In this document: piece by piece, positions 18,963-24,204 of the stretch | Numbering within the stretch: position 1 is the stretch's first letter | Layout: every line of letters begins with the position of its first letter | Origin: Nanoarchaeum sp. | GTDB taxonomy: Archaea > Nanobdellota > Nanobdellia > SCGC-AAA011-G17 > PNOQ01 | Length of the DNA: 47,021 nucleotides | Reading direction: 5' to 3' | Assembly (NCBI GenBank): GCA_013824915.1 | Contig: PNOQ01000024.1 | Location: 1 to 47,021, forward strand | Program-made: the position numbers and the translations under genes | Notes under the pieces: model-generated | What the model saw: only the letters and a program-made list of their open reading frames with translations | What the model was told of the DNA's origin: nothing | Database searches by the model: none

Positions 18963-19442
18963 ATGGATAAACCTAATCTAATCAAGATGGATATGAGATA
19001 TAAACAATTTTTTAGTCCTAATACTGACCGAGCTAGAGGAACTATGAATTTAGATGATGCTGTTGCAGATGTATTATCTTTCCACGATGTTTTAAGACAA
19101 GTTAATAAATTAATTCCTGATAAAGAAAAATTTCAAGTGGGTTTAGGTAATTGTGAAACTCATTTATATTATTCTAGGGGAATAATTTGTTTTGATGATT
19201 TAATCGGACCTAAGCGAGTGCTTGATTATTTCTTAGAAAGACTCGCACCAGAATATAGACCATTTACAATTTCAGTAACTCCATTTGGTAGAAATAGTAG
19301 AGTTTATATGGAAGAACTTGAACTTCATTTGAATGGACTAGGTAAAACATTCTACCCTCAAAAAAGTTATGAAGACATTGAAGATGTACTCCAAAGATTA
19401 GGCTCTTGTGATGGAATAATAAGAAATTTAAAGAGAGATTAA
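18963..19442 (+). CDS. hypothetical protein, tandem paralog 1
   Basis: ~53% alike by eye to 19497..19982; shared MRYKQFFSPN...ARGTM.LDDAVAD. Confidence 0.75.
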   Translation: MDKPNLIKMDMRYKQFFSPNTDRARGTMNLDDAVADVLSFHDVLRQVNKLIPDKEKFQVGLGNCETHLYYSRGIICFDDLIGPKRVLDYFLERLAPEYRPFTISVTPFGRNSRVYMEELELHLNGLGKTFYPQKSYEDIEDVLQRLGSCDGIIRNLKRD

Positions 19443-19496: not shown

Positions 19497-19982
19497 ATGG
19501 TTAAATCTAATATACTTCAAATGGGTATGAGATATAAACAATTTTTTAGTCCTAATATAGACAAAGCTAGAGGAACTATGGGGTTAGATGATGCTGTTGC
19601 AGATATTACTAATTTTAGACATGTTTTAGGACTGATTAGTAGATGTGTTCCTGATAAAGAAAATTTTCAAGTTGGCCTAAATAATTGTGAAACTTGTTTA
19701 TGGTATTCTAGAGAAATTACCTGTCTAGAAGATTTAACTAAACCTAAACAAGTGATTCGTTATTTCTTGCAAGAACTACCATTAGATCTTAGGCCATTTG
19801 CAATAGGGATTAATCCTAAAGGATTCAGCGATGAAAATTACGTAACTGAACTTGAAACTTATTTGAACGGCCTGGGTAAGACATTATATACTATAAAAAG
19901 CGATGAAAGCACAGTAAATAAATTATTAATTCTAACAGTGGGATCTTATAATATAGCAATAAGAAATTTAAAGAGAGATTAA
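19497..19982 (+). CDS. hypothetical protein, tandem paralog 2
   Basis: tandem duplicate of 18963..19442. Confidence 0.75.
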   Translation: MVKSNILQMGMRYKQFFSPNIDKARGTMGLDDAVADITNFRHVLGLISRCVPDKENFQVGLNNCETCLWYSREITCLEDLTKPKQVIRYFLQELPLDLRPFAIGINPKGFSDENYVTELETYLNGLGKTLYTIKSDESTVNKLLILTVGSYNIAIRNLKRD

Positions 19983-20599: not shown

Positions 20600-21940
20600 A
20601 TGAGTTTACAGATAATAGGCATAGGTGGTTATAACGAAGTCGGAAAAAATATGACTTTGGTTAAGTATAATGATGAAAGTGTTATTCTTGATATGGGTTT
20701 TCATTTACCTAGTTTAGTTGATTTTGAAGAACAAGGCGGGGATAGAAGAAATTTAACAACAAAAGGGCTACAAAAGCTAGGAGCAATTCCAGATGATTCT
20801 TCTTTGAATTCTTTTAAAGATAATATTAAAGCTATAGTTCCTTCTCATTGTCACTTAGATCATGTTGGTGCAATTCCTTATTTAGAAAAAAATTATAATG
20901 CAAAGATTATTGGTACTCCTTATACTATTGAAGTTTTGAAAAGTTTAGTTCAAGATGAAAACTTGAAATTAAGAAATCCTTTGATTGTTAATAAAGCGGG
21001 TTCAACTATTGAAGTTTCTAAAAATATTAAAGTAGAATTTATCAATACTACACATTCTACTCCGGATACTGTTAATGTTGCAATTCATACTCCTGAAGGA
21101 ATTGTTTTGTATACTAACGATTTTAAATTAGATAATAATCCGGTTATAGGAAAAAAACCTGATTATGATAGACTTAAAGAGTTAGGTAAAGAAGGTAAAG
21201 TTAAAGCATTATTGTTGGATAGTTTATATTCTAATCAACCTATGAAAACTCCTTCTGAAAGTGTTGCTAGAGAAATGTTAAAGGATGTTATGTTTGGAGC
21301 GGACAATGAAGGACATGCAATGATGATAACTACTTTTGCTAGTCAAATTGCAAGACTTAAAAGTGCGGTAGAATTTGGTAAAAAATTAGATAGAAAAATA
21401 GTTTTTTTGGGTAGATCATTAGTTAAATATAGTAATGCTGCAATCAATGTTGGTTATGGTGGATTTATGGAAGATGTTGAAATTGTTACTTATGCTAGAC
21501 AAGTAGAAAGAAAATTAAAACAAATTGAGAAAGATAGGTCTAAATATTTAGTAGTTTGTACTGGTAATCAGGCTGAGCCAGGTTCAATATTAACAAGAAT
21601 CGGCAGCAAAAAATTACCCTTTAAATTTGTGCATGATGATCACATAATATTTTCATGTAAAACTATTCCAGTTTCTCCAAATATTGAAAATAGACAAAAA
21701 TTGGAAAAACAATTAGCAAAAGAAGGAGTTAGAATATTCAAAGATATTCATGTTTCAGGTCATGGTGCTAGAGAAGATGCTAGAGATATGATTGATTTAG
21801 TGAAACCTCAAATGATAATACCTAGTCACGGTGATGTAGCCCATATAGGCGGAATTACCGAATTAACTGAAGTTTTGGGTTATAAAACTGGTAAAGATTT
21901 ACAATTTTTAGGAGATGGAAAAACCATAAATATAAAATGA
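20600..21940 (+). CDS. rnj: archaeal RNase J (metallo-beta-lactamase/beta-CASP)
   Basis: IGGYNEVGKNMTLV, SHCHLDHVGAIPYL, TCTGNQAEPGSILTRI-like region, HVSGHGAREDARDMIDLVKPQMIIPSHGD. Confidence 0.94.
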   Translation: MSLQIIGIGGYNEVGKNMTLVKYNDESVILDMGFHLPSLVDFEEQGGDRRNLTTKGLQKLGAIPDDSSLNSFKDNIKAIVPSHCHLDHVGAIPYLEKNYNAKIIGTPYTIEVLKSLVQDENLKLRNPLIVNKAGSTIEVSKNIKVEFINTTHSTPDTVNVAIHTPEGIVLYTNDFKLDNNPVIGKKPDYDRLKELGKEGKVKALLLDSLYSNQPMKTPSESVAREMLKDVMFGADNEGHAMMITTFASQIARLKSAVEFGKKLDRKIVFLGRSLVKYSNAAINVGYGGFMEDVEIVTYARQVERKLKQIEKDRSKYLVVCTGNQAEPGSILTRIGSKKLPFKFVHDDHIIFSCKTIPVSPNIENRQKLEKQLAKEGVRIFKDIHVSGHGAREDARDMIDLVKPQMIIPSHGDVAHIGGITELTEVLGYKTGKDLQFLGDGKTINIK

Positions 21941-22152
21941 AAACTAATAAAATTGTTTATTTGTTTTTGCTTGTAGTTATTTTGTTAAACTTCTTTTTAT
22001 TTATATTCAATGTTTATAATTTCATAATCTTTTGGATTTTGATATTAGTTGTTTTTGTAATAAATTCTATGTTACGGAGGAAAGATGAGCGGGCCAGGAG
22101 ATGGAAAGAAGCTTATAAAAAACGTAAAGGTTTACATACACACAAAGGGTAA
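21937..22152 (+). CDS. small membrane protein
   Basis: hydrophobic N-terminus then basic tail; ATGA overlap with RNase J stop. Confidence 0.5.
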   Translation: MKTNKIVYLFLLVVILLNFFLFIFNVYNFIIFWILILVVFVINSMLRRKDERARRWKEAYKKRKGLHTHKG

Positions 22153-22303
22153 ATTGATGGCTAATGTTACTCATATTGACATTGAGTCTGATGAGATTTC
22201 TAAAATAATTAAAGAAGGAGAAACTACGTTTGTCAAAGGCAAAAAAGGCGGAGTTTTTATTGCTTTAAAGAAAGATATGATTAATCGAGCTGAGAAGAAA
22301 TAA
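22085..22303 (+). CDS. small hypothetical protein (start uncertain: 22085 or 22157)
   Basis: ggagg SD 4 nt before ATG 22085; alternative MANVTHIDIESDEISKIIKEG at 22157. Confidence 0.5.
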   Translation: MSGPGDGKKLIKNVKVYIHTKGKLMANVTHIDIESDEISKIIKEGETTFVKGKKGGVFIALKKDMINRAEKK

Positions 22304-22333
22304 ATTTATATATCTTAATATTAATTTTTTATT

Positions 22334-23485
22334 ATGAAAATTATGGTGATAGTGTTAATTCTATTAGTTTTACCTATTTGTTTTGCTAAAGAGGTTAATA
22401 TTATTGAAACTTTTGAGAGTGAGAAAAATATTGGTGAAACTACTTATTATTATGCTGGTGCTAAATTAATTGCAACTAAGAATAATGATAATATTAATTA
22501 TGAATACCAAGATAGATTAGATTCTGATGTTGAGTCTGATAGTTTACCTTTTGGTGAGGAAGTTAATTCTAATGAAAGATTTAGTTTTACTGGAAAGGAA
22601 TTAGACGAAGAATTGTATTATTTTAATGCTAGGTATTATGATTCTAAGATTGGAAGATTTACTTCAGTAGACCCAGTTCCTACAGAACCAGCTTATCAAT
22701 ATGTACAAAATAATCCTACAAACTTATTTGATTCTACGGGTAGTGCTGGTACATCAGTTCGAAATAAACTTATAGATGTTAACGTTTTTATTATTAATCC
22801 TACACAACAGTATACCAGTAATGGAAGAACATATGTTACAGATGTATACGGTGGAAATAGAGTTGCAATGTCCAGGGCTTTGAGAGATTATGATGCTAAA
22901 ATATATATGGGATACATGTCTCTTGCAGAATCGTCTTATATACATTTTGTATCTGGGCATAGCGTAGGTGATGGGAAAGTGTATGGTGATATTCGTAAAT
23001 CAAAATATTATGATTTATCTCAACTAAGTGAAGATACAAACACTTTAGCAGTAGTCTATAGTTCTTGTCATACTGTGCTCGATCCTTCATATAAATTGGC
23101 TTTTGATAGAGACAAGATTTTAGCTCATACTGATAGGTTTAATAATATTAAGTTAATCCTTGGTTTTGAATCTGGTGCGCCGCTTTTTGATAGTGAAAGA
23201 TTACAAGATGTAAGTGGAAAATTAGTAGAATTAATACTTTCTGGAAAATATTCTGAGGCGGCTGAATTGTGGATAAGTAGTGTTGAAACATTAAATAATG
23301 GTGAATTTAATCCGTTCAATAGTAGGGGAGATTTTATTTATTTCAAAGATGAAGAAGACTTTCATTATGGTGGCTCTGCTTTTATAAAATCTGGAGATTC
23401 TTGGTATTATCTTTCTAGTACTGTAAAAAAACCGAAATATGTTTTTTCAGAAGATGCAGATGTAGCTAACTTAGGAACACAATAA
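22334..23485 (+). CDS. secreted mini-RHS protein with C-terminal caspase/gingipain-like (clan CD) candidate domain
   Basis: signal peptide MKIMVIVLILLVLPICFA; RHS core FSFTGKELDEELYYFNARYYDSKIGRFTSVDPVPTEPAYQYVQNNPTNLFDSTG; C-term HFVSGHS...LAVVYSSCHT...KLILGFESGAP. Confidence 0.88.
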   Translation: MKIMVIVLILLVLPICFAKEVNIIETFESEKNIGETTYYYAGAKLIATKNNDNINYEYQDRLDSDVESDSLPFGEEVNSNERFSFTGKELDEELYYFNARYYDSKIGRFTSVDPVPTEPAYQYVQNNPTNLFDSTGSAGTSVRNKLIDVNVFIINPTQQYTSNGRTYVTDVYGGNRVAMSRALRDYDAKIYMGYMSLAESSYIHFVSGHSVGDGKVYGDIRKSKYYDLSQLSEDTNTLAVVYSSCHTVLDPSYKLAFDRDKILAHTDRFNNIKLILGFESGAPLFDSERLQDVSGKLVELILSGKYSEAAELWISSVETLNNGEFNPFNSRGDFIYFKDEEDFHYGGSAFIKSGDSWYYLSSTVKKPKYVFSEDADVANLGTQ

Positions 23486-23490
23486 TTATT

Positions 23491-24087
23491 TTAATTTAGT
23501 TGAAAATTTTCAGGTAAATAACCAATTATACCTACAGTACTTTTCATTCTTAACTTTTTTACCAACAAACTCATACCTTCTTCTGAGATTGCAACACATC
23601 CAATAGTCCAGTCTATATTATCTGGTCCAGAATGAATTTCTATGTAACTTCCTGGGCTGTTTATTTCATCTGGAACTAAACCTTTTGATTTTGCTTCTAA
23701 AAATTCTTTTTTGTCGTTTGAAGTGGGATAATTCAATAATAATGCTAGACCGAACCGACTAGTTTTTCCTGGAGTACCATCTTTTACTTCATCTATTCTA
23801 TATACTCCTTCTGGGGTTTTTCCATCCCCTTCGTATAATTTATCTCCTTCTGGTTTTATACTTAATCCAACATTAAAAGTAGTGTCTATAGAACCATTTT
23901 GGAATAGATATGCTTCCCTATCTTGTTTGTTCACAAGTAAAGAATAACCACTTCTTCGCGAATCTTCTATTACTCTCCTTACTGTTTCACTATATCTTCT
24001 ATCTTGTTCCAAATTCAATGATTCAGAATAACTTTGTGTGCTTAATAACAAAGTTGCTACACTTAGTAAATTTATTAACTTTCCCAT
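23491..24087 (-). CDS. secreted L,D-transpeptidase (YkuD) family protein
   Basis: signal peptide; GDGKTPEGVYRI; IEIHSGPDNIDWTIGCVAIS (His and Gly-Cys motif). Confidence 0.85.
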   Translation of the reverse strand: MGKLINLLSVATLLLSTQSYSESLNLEQDRRYSETVRRVIEDSRRSGYSLLVNKQDREAYLFQNGSIDTTFNVGLSIKPEGDKLYEGDGKTPEGVYRIDEVKDGTPGKTSRFGLALLLNYPTSNDKKEFLEAKSKGLVPDEINSPGSYIEIHSGPDNIDWTIGCVAISEEGMSLLVKKLRMKSTVGIIGYLPENFQLN

Positions 24088-24204
24088 AGTAGTGATACAA
24101 ACGAACTATTTATAAGAGTTTTGATATAAGACTGATTTGACGAAAGCCAGATTCTAAAATAACTGTTTTAGTACAATTATCTTTATTTATACTTAGCTTT
24201 TTTA

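Follow-up and report, generated by a model that had tools for sequence, protein, structure and literature searches.

A mini-RHS protein with a predicted clan CD protease domain and a convergent YkuD partner gene in a Woesearchaeota-type archaeon

The window analysed here is a stretch of 47,021 nucleotides (nt) of archaeal DNA (Nanoarchaeum sp., contig PNOQ01000024.1), and this study concerns an RHS gene on its forward strand together with the gene that faces it. The first gene encodes a protein predicted to be secreted, with a signal peptide, a single RHS-associated core that is constant among many copies, and a variable C-terminal domain (CTD) for which a caspase/CHAT-like fold is predicted and in which a His-Cys dyad is conserved. 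The second gene, encoding an exported YkuD-fold protein, lies tail-to-tail with the RHS gene, on the opposite strand and 5 nt past its stop. It is a dedicated neighbour of this CTD protease family, and the two genes are exchanged as a unit. This suggests a weapon-and-partner module that is swappable between strains. The explanation that we favour, with a probability of roughly one half, is a secreted modular effector with a protective exported partner, horizontally exchanged as a convergent two-gene module.

The open reading frame (ORF) of the RHS gene starts with ATG and ends with TAA; its parts are listed in Table 1. Residues 72-136 match the NCBIfam model TIGR03696 (Rhs_assc_core) with E = 7.3e-18 and 64.9 bits, twice the curated cut-off of 32.5 bits, and among PDB entries the core matches TcdB2-TccC3 and YenC2 where their own cores end. 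It is followed by a CTD of 247 residues. An earlier note on this DNA, made from the letters alone, had described a signal peptide, one compact RHS core and a unique C-terminus, all of which are confirmed. The two residues that it singled out were placed exactly: His209 in YIHFVSGHS (codon at 22958) and Cys245 in LAVVYSSCHT (codon at 23066) are 36 residues apart. The whole protein of 383 residues has only this one core, and the long YD/RHS repeat array needed for a cocoon is absent, for which reason the locus is a mini-RHS variant and not a canonical RHS member. The note took the full array to have been lost, which is consistent with a mini core under purifying selection in about 50 copies. At the core end the D and G of DPxG, the RHS autocleavage motif, are kept and P is replaced by S. 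The note reported this alteration correctly, but it is not special: DxxG with invariant D and G ends every intact core and P is replaced in 8 of about 50 copies, so that DSTG falls within the variation of the family.

The genome survey covered 61 genomes, namely that of the window and 60 relatives, nearly all of them draft bins. Mini-RHS genes were found in 12 of them, with up to ten per genome, and the genomes bearing them measure 0.5-1.0 Mb. The window genome (829 kb) has five RHS cores, and a further N-terminus, the sixth, is truncated where its contig ends. Protein similarity among copies usually ends at about residue 140. The N-terminus and core are similar in 1324 of the 1326 pairs formed by 52 extracted RHS-core proteins, whereas the C-termini of the 48 proteins in which they are long enough for comparison are similar in 5 of 1128 pairs, none within one genome, and fall into 44 unrelated groups. 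Between paralogs of one genome, DNA identity (about 66-97%) generally stops no more than about 25 nt from the end of the core. Taken together, the copies form a polymorphic repertoire of RHS-CTD type, with a mini core in place of the cocoon. The earlier note proposed to see whether in related archaea the core stays constant and the C-terminus swaps; the pairwise comparison shows that this is so, as do single loci that carry different CTDs.

It could be supposed that the window gene is a silent RHS tip cassette, a truncated and unexpressed tip held in reserve until it recombines with a full-length gene. Among the ORFs of the window genome there are indeed longer ones of RHS type (at least 750 and 874 residues, cut by contig ends), and many copies lie at contig ends in a repeat-like manner. 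However, most complete copies have their own ATG, a TATA-like box about 25 nt before it and a signal peptide, the core is under purifying selection (median dN/dS, the ratio of non-synonymous to synonymous substitution rates, 0.12-0.38), and the core of the window protein shares only 54% identity with that of the long copy on C11. The promoter, the signal peptide and dN/dS argue that the copies are live genes, and a silent store is highly improbable.

Among the sister CTDs, that at G007:C5 contains the pretoxin domain PT-TG above the cut-off, and one in the window genome (G000:C11) shows weak PT-TG and weak HicA-like matches. Transglutaminase-like and papain/amidase-like hints in others are below the cut-off, and HEXXH motifs were seen by eye in three. 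Such enzyme-like or pretoxin signatures tell against a surface self/non-self or adhesion system, in which the protease would trim surface proteins and poison nothing, as does the presence of the protease domain on carriers of other kinds that also have this YkuD neighbour. For VARTIG of Thermococcales (PMC8416519) such a system has been put forward as one of several options, and it would suit those CTDs that look structural (FlgD_ig/Por_Secre_tail-like) and have no partner gene. For the repertoire as a whole we regard it as unlikely.

Several further features of the repertoire were observed. Five more RHS C-termini (G005:C25, L076; G008:C23, L052; G018:C46, L083) have hydrophobic-H[GS] ... hydrophobic-[ST]C or similar patterns; one of them had no match in a PDB sequence search. 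Judging by these motifs, caspase-like folds may be a recurrent theme of the C-terminal repertoire. The CTD group resembling FlgD_ig/Por secretion tails, which are sorting domains like those of the type IX secretion system (T9SS), was found in three genomes (L039, L050, L074) with no evident partner gene; it was weighed as a toxin and set aside. Many assemblies break off within the constant part of RHS genes (contig ends in G000, G001, G003, G006 and G008), and the counts given here are therefore probably below the true copy numbers. One copy, G000:C7, was considered as an orphan N-terminal fragment and rejected as such, the contig ending at that point.

The earlier note proposed a clan CD peptidase and named C14, C25, C80, CHAT and DUF6345 for comparison. 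The window CTD has no Pfam match to any of these even at E = 10, Pfam, PADLOC and PDB sequence searches returned nothing useful, and no relatives were found in plasmid tblastn or viral-contig scans. Iterated genome searches led to a family of 19 archaeal domains with at least three different N-termini: a second RHS fusion (G018, whose gene runs off the end of its contig), secreted proteins 685-920 residues long with unrelated N-termini, and proteins of 450-535 residues with a third kind of N-terminus. GH and, later, SxC[HNRS] are kept in all 19 aligned domains; since these homologs were found independently, the His/Cys pair is not a chance occurrence.

The AlphaFold model of the window domain (16-row alignment) has pLDDT 68 and pTM 0.72, and that of a family member is better (pLDDT 78, pTM 0.81). 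His and Cys end two consecutive strands in both. As was found by Foldseek, the best PDB structure matches of the window domain are the CHAT domains of Craspase/Csx29 (E = 0.009, probability 0.95); the family member matches SAVED-CHAT (E = 1e-4, probability 1.0) and then many caspases (probability mostly 0.8-0.97), so fold support is weaker for the window domain itself. The fold matches, together with the conserved dyad, support the assignment of the CTD to clan CD (caspase/CHAT-like), from which we infer proteolytic activity. The comparison suggested in the note thus succeeded at the level of structure and failed at that of Pfam families. A coincidental origin of the motifs in a domain outside clan CD would agree with the lack of Pfam and PDB sequence matches, but the dyad kept in every homolog, its place at the ends of consecutive strands and the CHAT/caspase folds as top structural matches make it scarcely credible.

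The note was also correct that no immunity gene adjoins on the same strand; it implied that a partner is lacking, which the convergent YkuD gene contradicts. Its overall interpretation is therefore partly supported: the clan CD domain and RHS-type swapping in a small archaeon stand, and the absence of a partner gene does not. The partner has a PF03734 domain with catalytic His and Cys. A convergent YkuD gene adjoins 14 of the 19 CTD genes, those of the window, G018, G369, G604 and ten genomes of one family, with a small ORF in between in one case. A YkuD protein is present in 18 of 19 CTD-bearing genomes, and above the cut-off in only 11 of 61 without the CTD (Fisher p = 1.5e-9), an association that is inflated by kinship in the ten-genome family and still extends over five families and three carrier types. 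The catalytic motif H...(D/N)WTxGC is intact in all 14 adjacent proteins and is distinct from the S[HLF]GC[IV]R type of the other YkuDs of these genomes. The adjacent YkuDs begin with Sec-, lipoprotein- or twin-arginine-like signals. A lipobox was found in 5 of 19 convergent partners versus 21 of 524, a real and modest difference, and is not present in all YkuD partners. The YkuDs of G018 and the window are 54% identical, their CTDs 27%. Of the NCBIfam models, that of LdtF/DpaA/YafK (a peptidoglycan-protein amidase) comes nearest, with a score that falls far short of the cut-off. No Mur ligase above the cut-off was found in the window genome (about 90% complete), which makes action of the YkuD on the cell's own peptidoglycan unlikely; action on another cell's wall or on surface amide links is plausible.

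Similar arrangements were seen with other genes. Three long secreted proteins of 969-1151 residues in G454, G484 and G527 (L173 393-3848, L171 1481-4390, L174 1068-4169) have H...SC-like C-termini with no profile match and face a convergent exported YkuD. In G211 (L172 4453-6066) an insertion sequence (IS)-like transposase gene pair adjoins a WTxGC-type YkuD, at the place where the protease gene would be expected.

The pair has been gained or exchanged as a unit. In G001, a genome of the same genus, the locus is colinear (RNase J-like, 75-residue ORF, dNK, Mre11), and its DNA aligns at 84.6% up to position 22317 of the window and at 80% from 24157, with contiguous positions in G001. The segment absent from G001 comprises exactly the two genes, RHS and YkuD, and the region upstream of each. 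The insertion shows neither a target-site duplication nor terminal repeats. At the TrpRS locus, assigned by eye from sequence, of G000, G001, G007 and G008, the gene preceding the RHS gene is conserved (75-88% identical), the gene beyond the convergent gene is 75-91% identical in the three genomes that have it, and between them a change of the RHS CTD goes along with a change of the convergent gene; overall, the flanks at this locus are 65-91% identical. Only G001 and G007 have related CTDs there, and their partners are also related (TPR lipoproteins, 29% identical). The convergent slot of the sister loci holds unrelated exported proteins, TPR lipoproteins and small membrane proteins, that follow the CTD.

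Two observations belong to these loci. The RHS copies of the TrpRS locus (G000:C11, G001:C4, G007:C53 and G008:C23; L040, L056, L062 and L052) have, from the signal peptide to the core, a stalk rich in N-I-T sequons (NITDNITxINIT...), possibly N-glycosylated, which is absent from RHS copies outside this locus. In G006 (L075; compare 20600-22303 of the window) an RHS gene with a different CTD lies beside the same RNase J-like gene in the opposite facing orientation.

According to the favoured explanation, the first gene would encode a secreted polymorphic effector, with the signal peptide, the mini RHS core as constant carrier and the clan CD His-Cys protease as its CTD, and the second an exported YkuD-fold enzyme dedicated to this protease family. 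The protease would act outside the producer, cleaving proteins of neighbouring or host cells, and the YkuD, exported or anchored on the producer's own surface, would keep the producer safe as the cognate partner. A protective role is proposed because the slot at sister loci holds other exported proteins that follow the CTD, and this logic favours self-protection by the partner. Several findings weigh against the explanation. All adjacent YkuDs have an intact active site, and YkuD is better conserved than the CTD; both traits would be unusual in an immunity protein that acts by binding, and they favour an enzymatic role. Five CTD loci have no adjacent YkuD, and next to many sister RHS genes no convergent gene for an exported protein is evident. 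Close convergent neighbours are only modestly enriched over all RHS genes (20/48 versus 102/415, p = 0.015), in statistics that rest on simple ORF calls made for this analysis. At two conserved loci (G001:C8/G008:C17 and G001:C24/G008:C9) the CTD differs with no partner between, which shows that some CTDs lack an adjacent partner. For the window domain itself the model is of moderate quality, as its pLDDT indicates.

The intact and better conserved active site would fit an alternative in which the protease and the YkuD are co-acting enzymes directed against bacterial prey or a bacterial host, and not effector and immunity protein. For example, the YkuD would cut or form amide links in the bacterial wall or surface while the protease processes exposed proteins, or the protease would mature the YkuD. 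The amidase as nearest model, distant as it is, and a possibly foreign substrate, given the lack of a Mur ligase, point the same way. Besides, archaea are known to have peptidoglycan hydrolases with which bacteria are killed, and these enzymes are frequent in Nanoarchaeota (PMC12352652); Zhang et al. (2012, PMC3482391) give Imm57 as common to Tox-LD-peptidase and Tox-Caspase. It would be unusual, however, for co-acting enzymes to be encoded convergently from separate promoters, and the slot at sister loci holds unrelated exported proteins that track the CTD. Co-action is a possible, if less probable, alternative to the effector with a protective partner.

The effector and its partner can be compared with several known systems. 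In RHS polymorphic toxins (RhsA-type, TcC/TccC, Tse5) the TIGR03696 core also stands directly before a variable CTD with D..G at the junction; there, however, the cocoon takes 600 or more residues and the partner lies downstream on the same strand, whereas here there is about one core, an own archaeal promoter and signal peptide, and a convergent partner. Tox-Caspase of bacterial polymorphic toxins shares the caspase-like fold, H and C, and the C-terminal position on a secreted polymorphic protein; the entry for it in Zhang et al. (2012) names bacteria and phages, whereas the present domain belongs to Woesearchaeota-type archaea, has no Pfam match and has a YkuD neighbour. The CHAT peptidases (SAVED-CHAT, Craspase/Csx29), the closest solved folds, are cytoplasmic CRISPR or CBASS effectors, unlike the secreted protein here. 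VARTIG (PMC8416519), with archaeal hypervariable C-termini and family-matched neighbouring genes, is the nearest archaeal analogue in logic, but it has an Ig-domain carrier, co-directed gene arrays and no recognised toxin domain. The YkuD L,D-transpeptidases (LdtF/DpaA/YafK-like) share PF03734 with an intact H...GC; they have SHGCIR in place of WTxGC[IVAM], and the present YkuD differs also in being convergent with a protease gene and in belonging to an archaeal genome with no Mur ligase above the cut-off.

In its genome counts, the 2012 survey finds polymorphic toxins rare in archaea (about 15 of 225 genomes; PMC3482391). Where it deals with gene neighbourhoods, it counts unidirectional operons and examines head-to-head pairs, so that tail-to-tail partners would be missed there; generally, partner searches restricted to these two layouts would miss convergent modules. 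A literature search that did not take in the archaeal polymorphic toxin survey of Makarova et al. (mBio 2019) found nothing that connects Woesearchaeota with RHS genes, caspase-like domains or YkuD. Up to ten mini-RHS genes in 0.5-1.0 Mb are a large investment for reduced, probably host-dependent cells, and the recurrent pairing of a caspase-like protease with YkuD, in an archaeon seemingly without wall synthesis, is a concrete pair for experiments. We tentatively propose, at less than even odds, that it represents an uncharacterised Woesearchaeota-type surface conflict system, a two-enzyme module with no known bacterial counterpart, in which a dedicated, catalytically active YkuD encoded tail-to-tail would go with a caspase-like protease that is secreted and can be borne by any of several N-termini (mini-RHS, long secreted, membrane-bound).

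Table 1. Positions of the RHS gene, its parts and the neighbouring features in the window
Feature	Position	Strand	Remarks
TATA-box-like element TTTATATAT	22305..22313	+	about 25 nt 5' of ATG; leaderless-type promoter; in most family copies
Two-gene insertion (RHS-protease and YkuD)	22318..24156	.	absent at colinear site of same-genus G001
Mini-RHS protein with C-terminal clan-CD-like protease domain (predicted)	22334..23485	+	383 residues
Signal peptide MKIMVIVLILLVLPICFA, residues 1-18	22334..22387	+	from sequence; position same in other copies
Linker and last YD-like strand (TYYYAGAKLIATKNNDNINYEYQD)	22388..22546	+	constant part common to paralogs
RHS-associated core, ending in DSTG	22547..22741	+	TIGR03696
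Variable CTD, caspase/CHAT-like by predicted fold, no Pfam family	22742..23482	+	
His209, conserved GH	22958..22960	+	19/19 homologs
Cys245, conserved SxC[HNRS]	23066..23068	+	19/19 homologs
Exported YkuD (PF03734) partner, 198 residues, active-site motif IHSGPDNIDWTIGCVAI	23491..24087	-	PF03734 E = 1.4e-10; convergent

Elsewhere in the window, two adjacent related ORFs on the forward strand, at 18963-19442 (159 residues, no match in a Pfam search) and 19497-19982 (161 residues), have MRYKQFFSPN.D.ARGTM.LDDAVAD in common and represent a tandem duplication.
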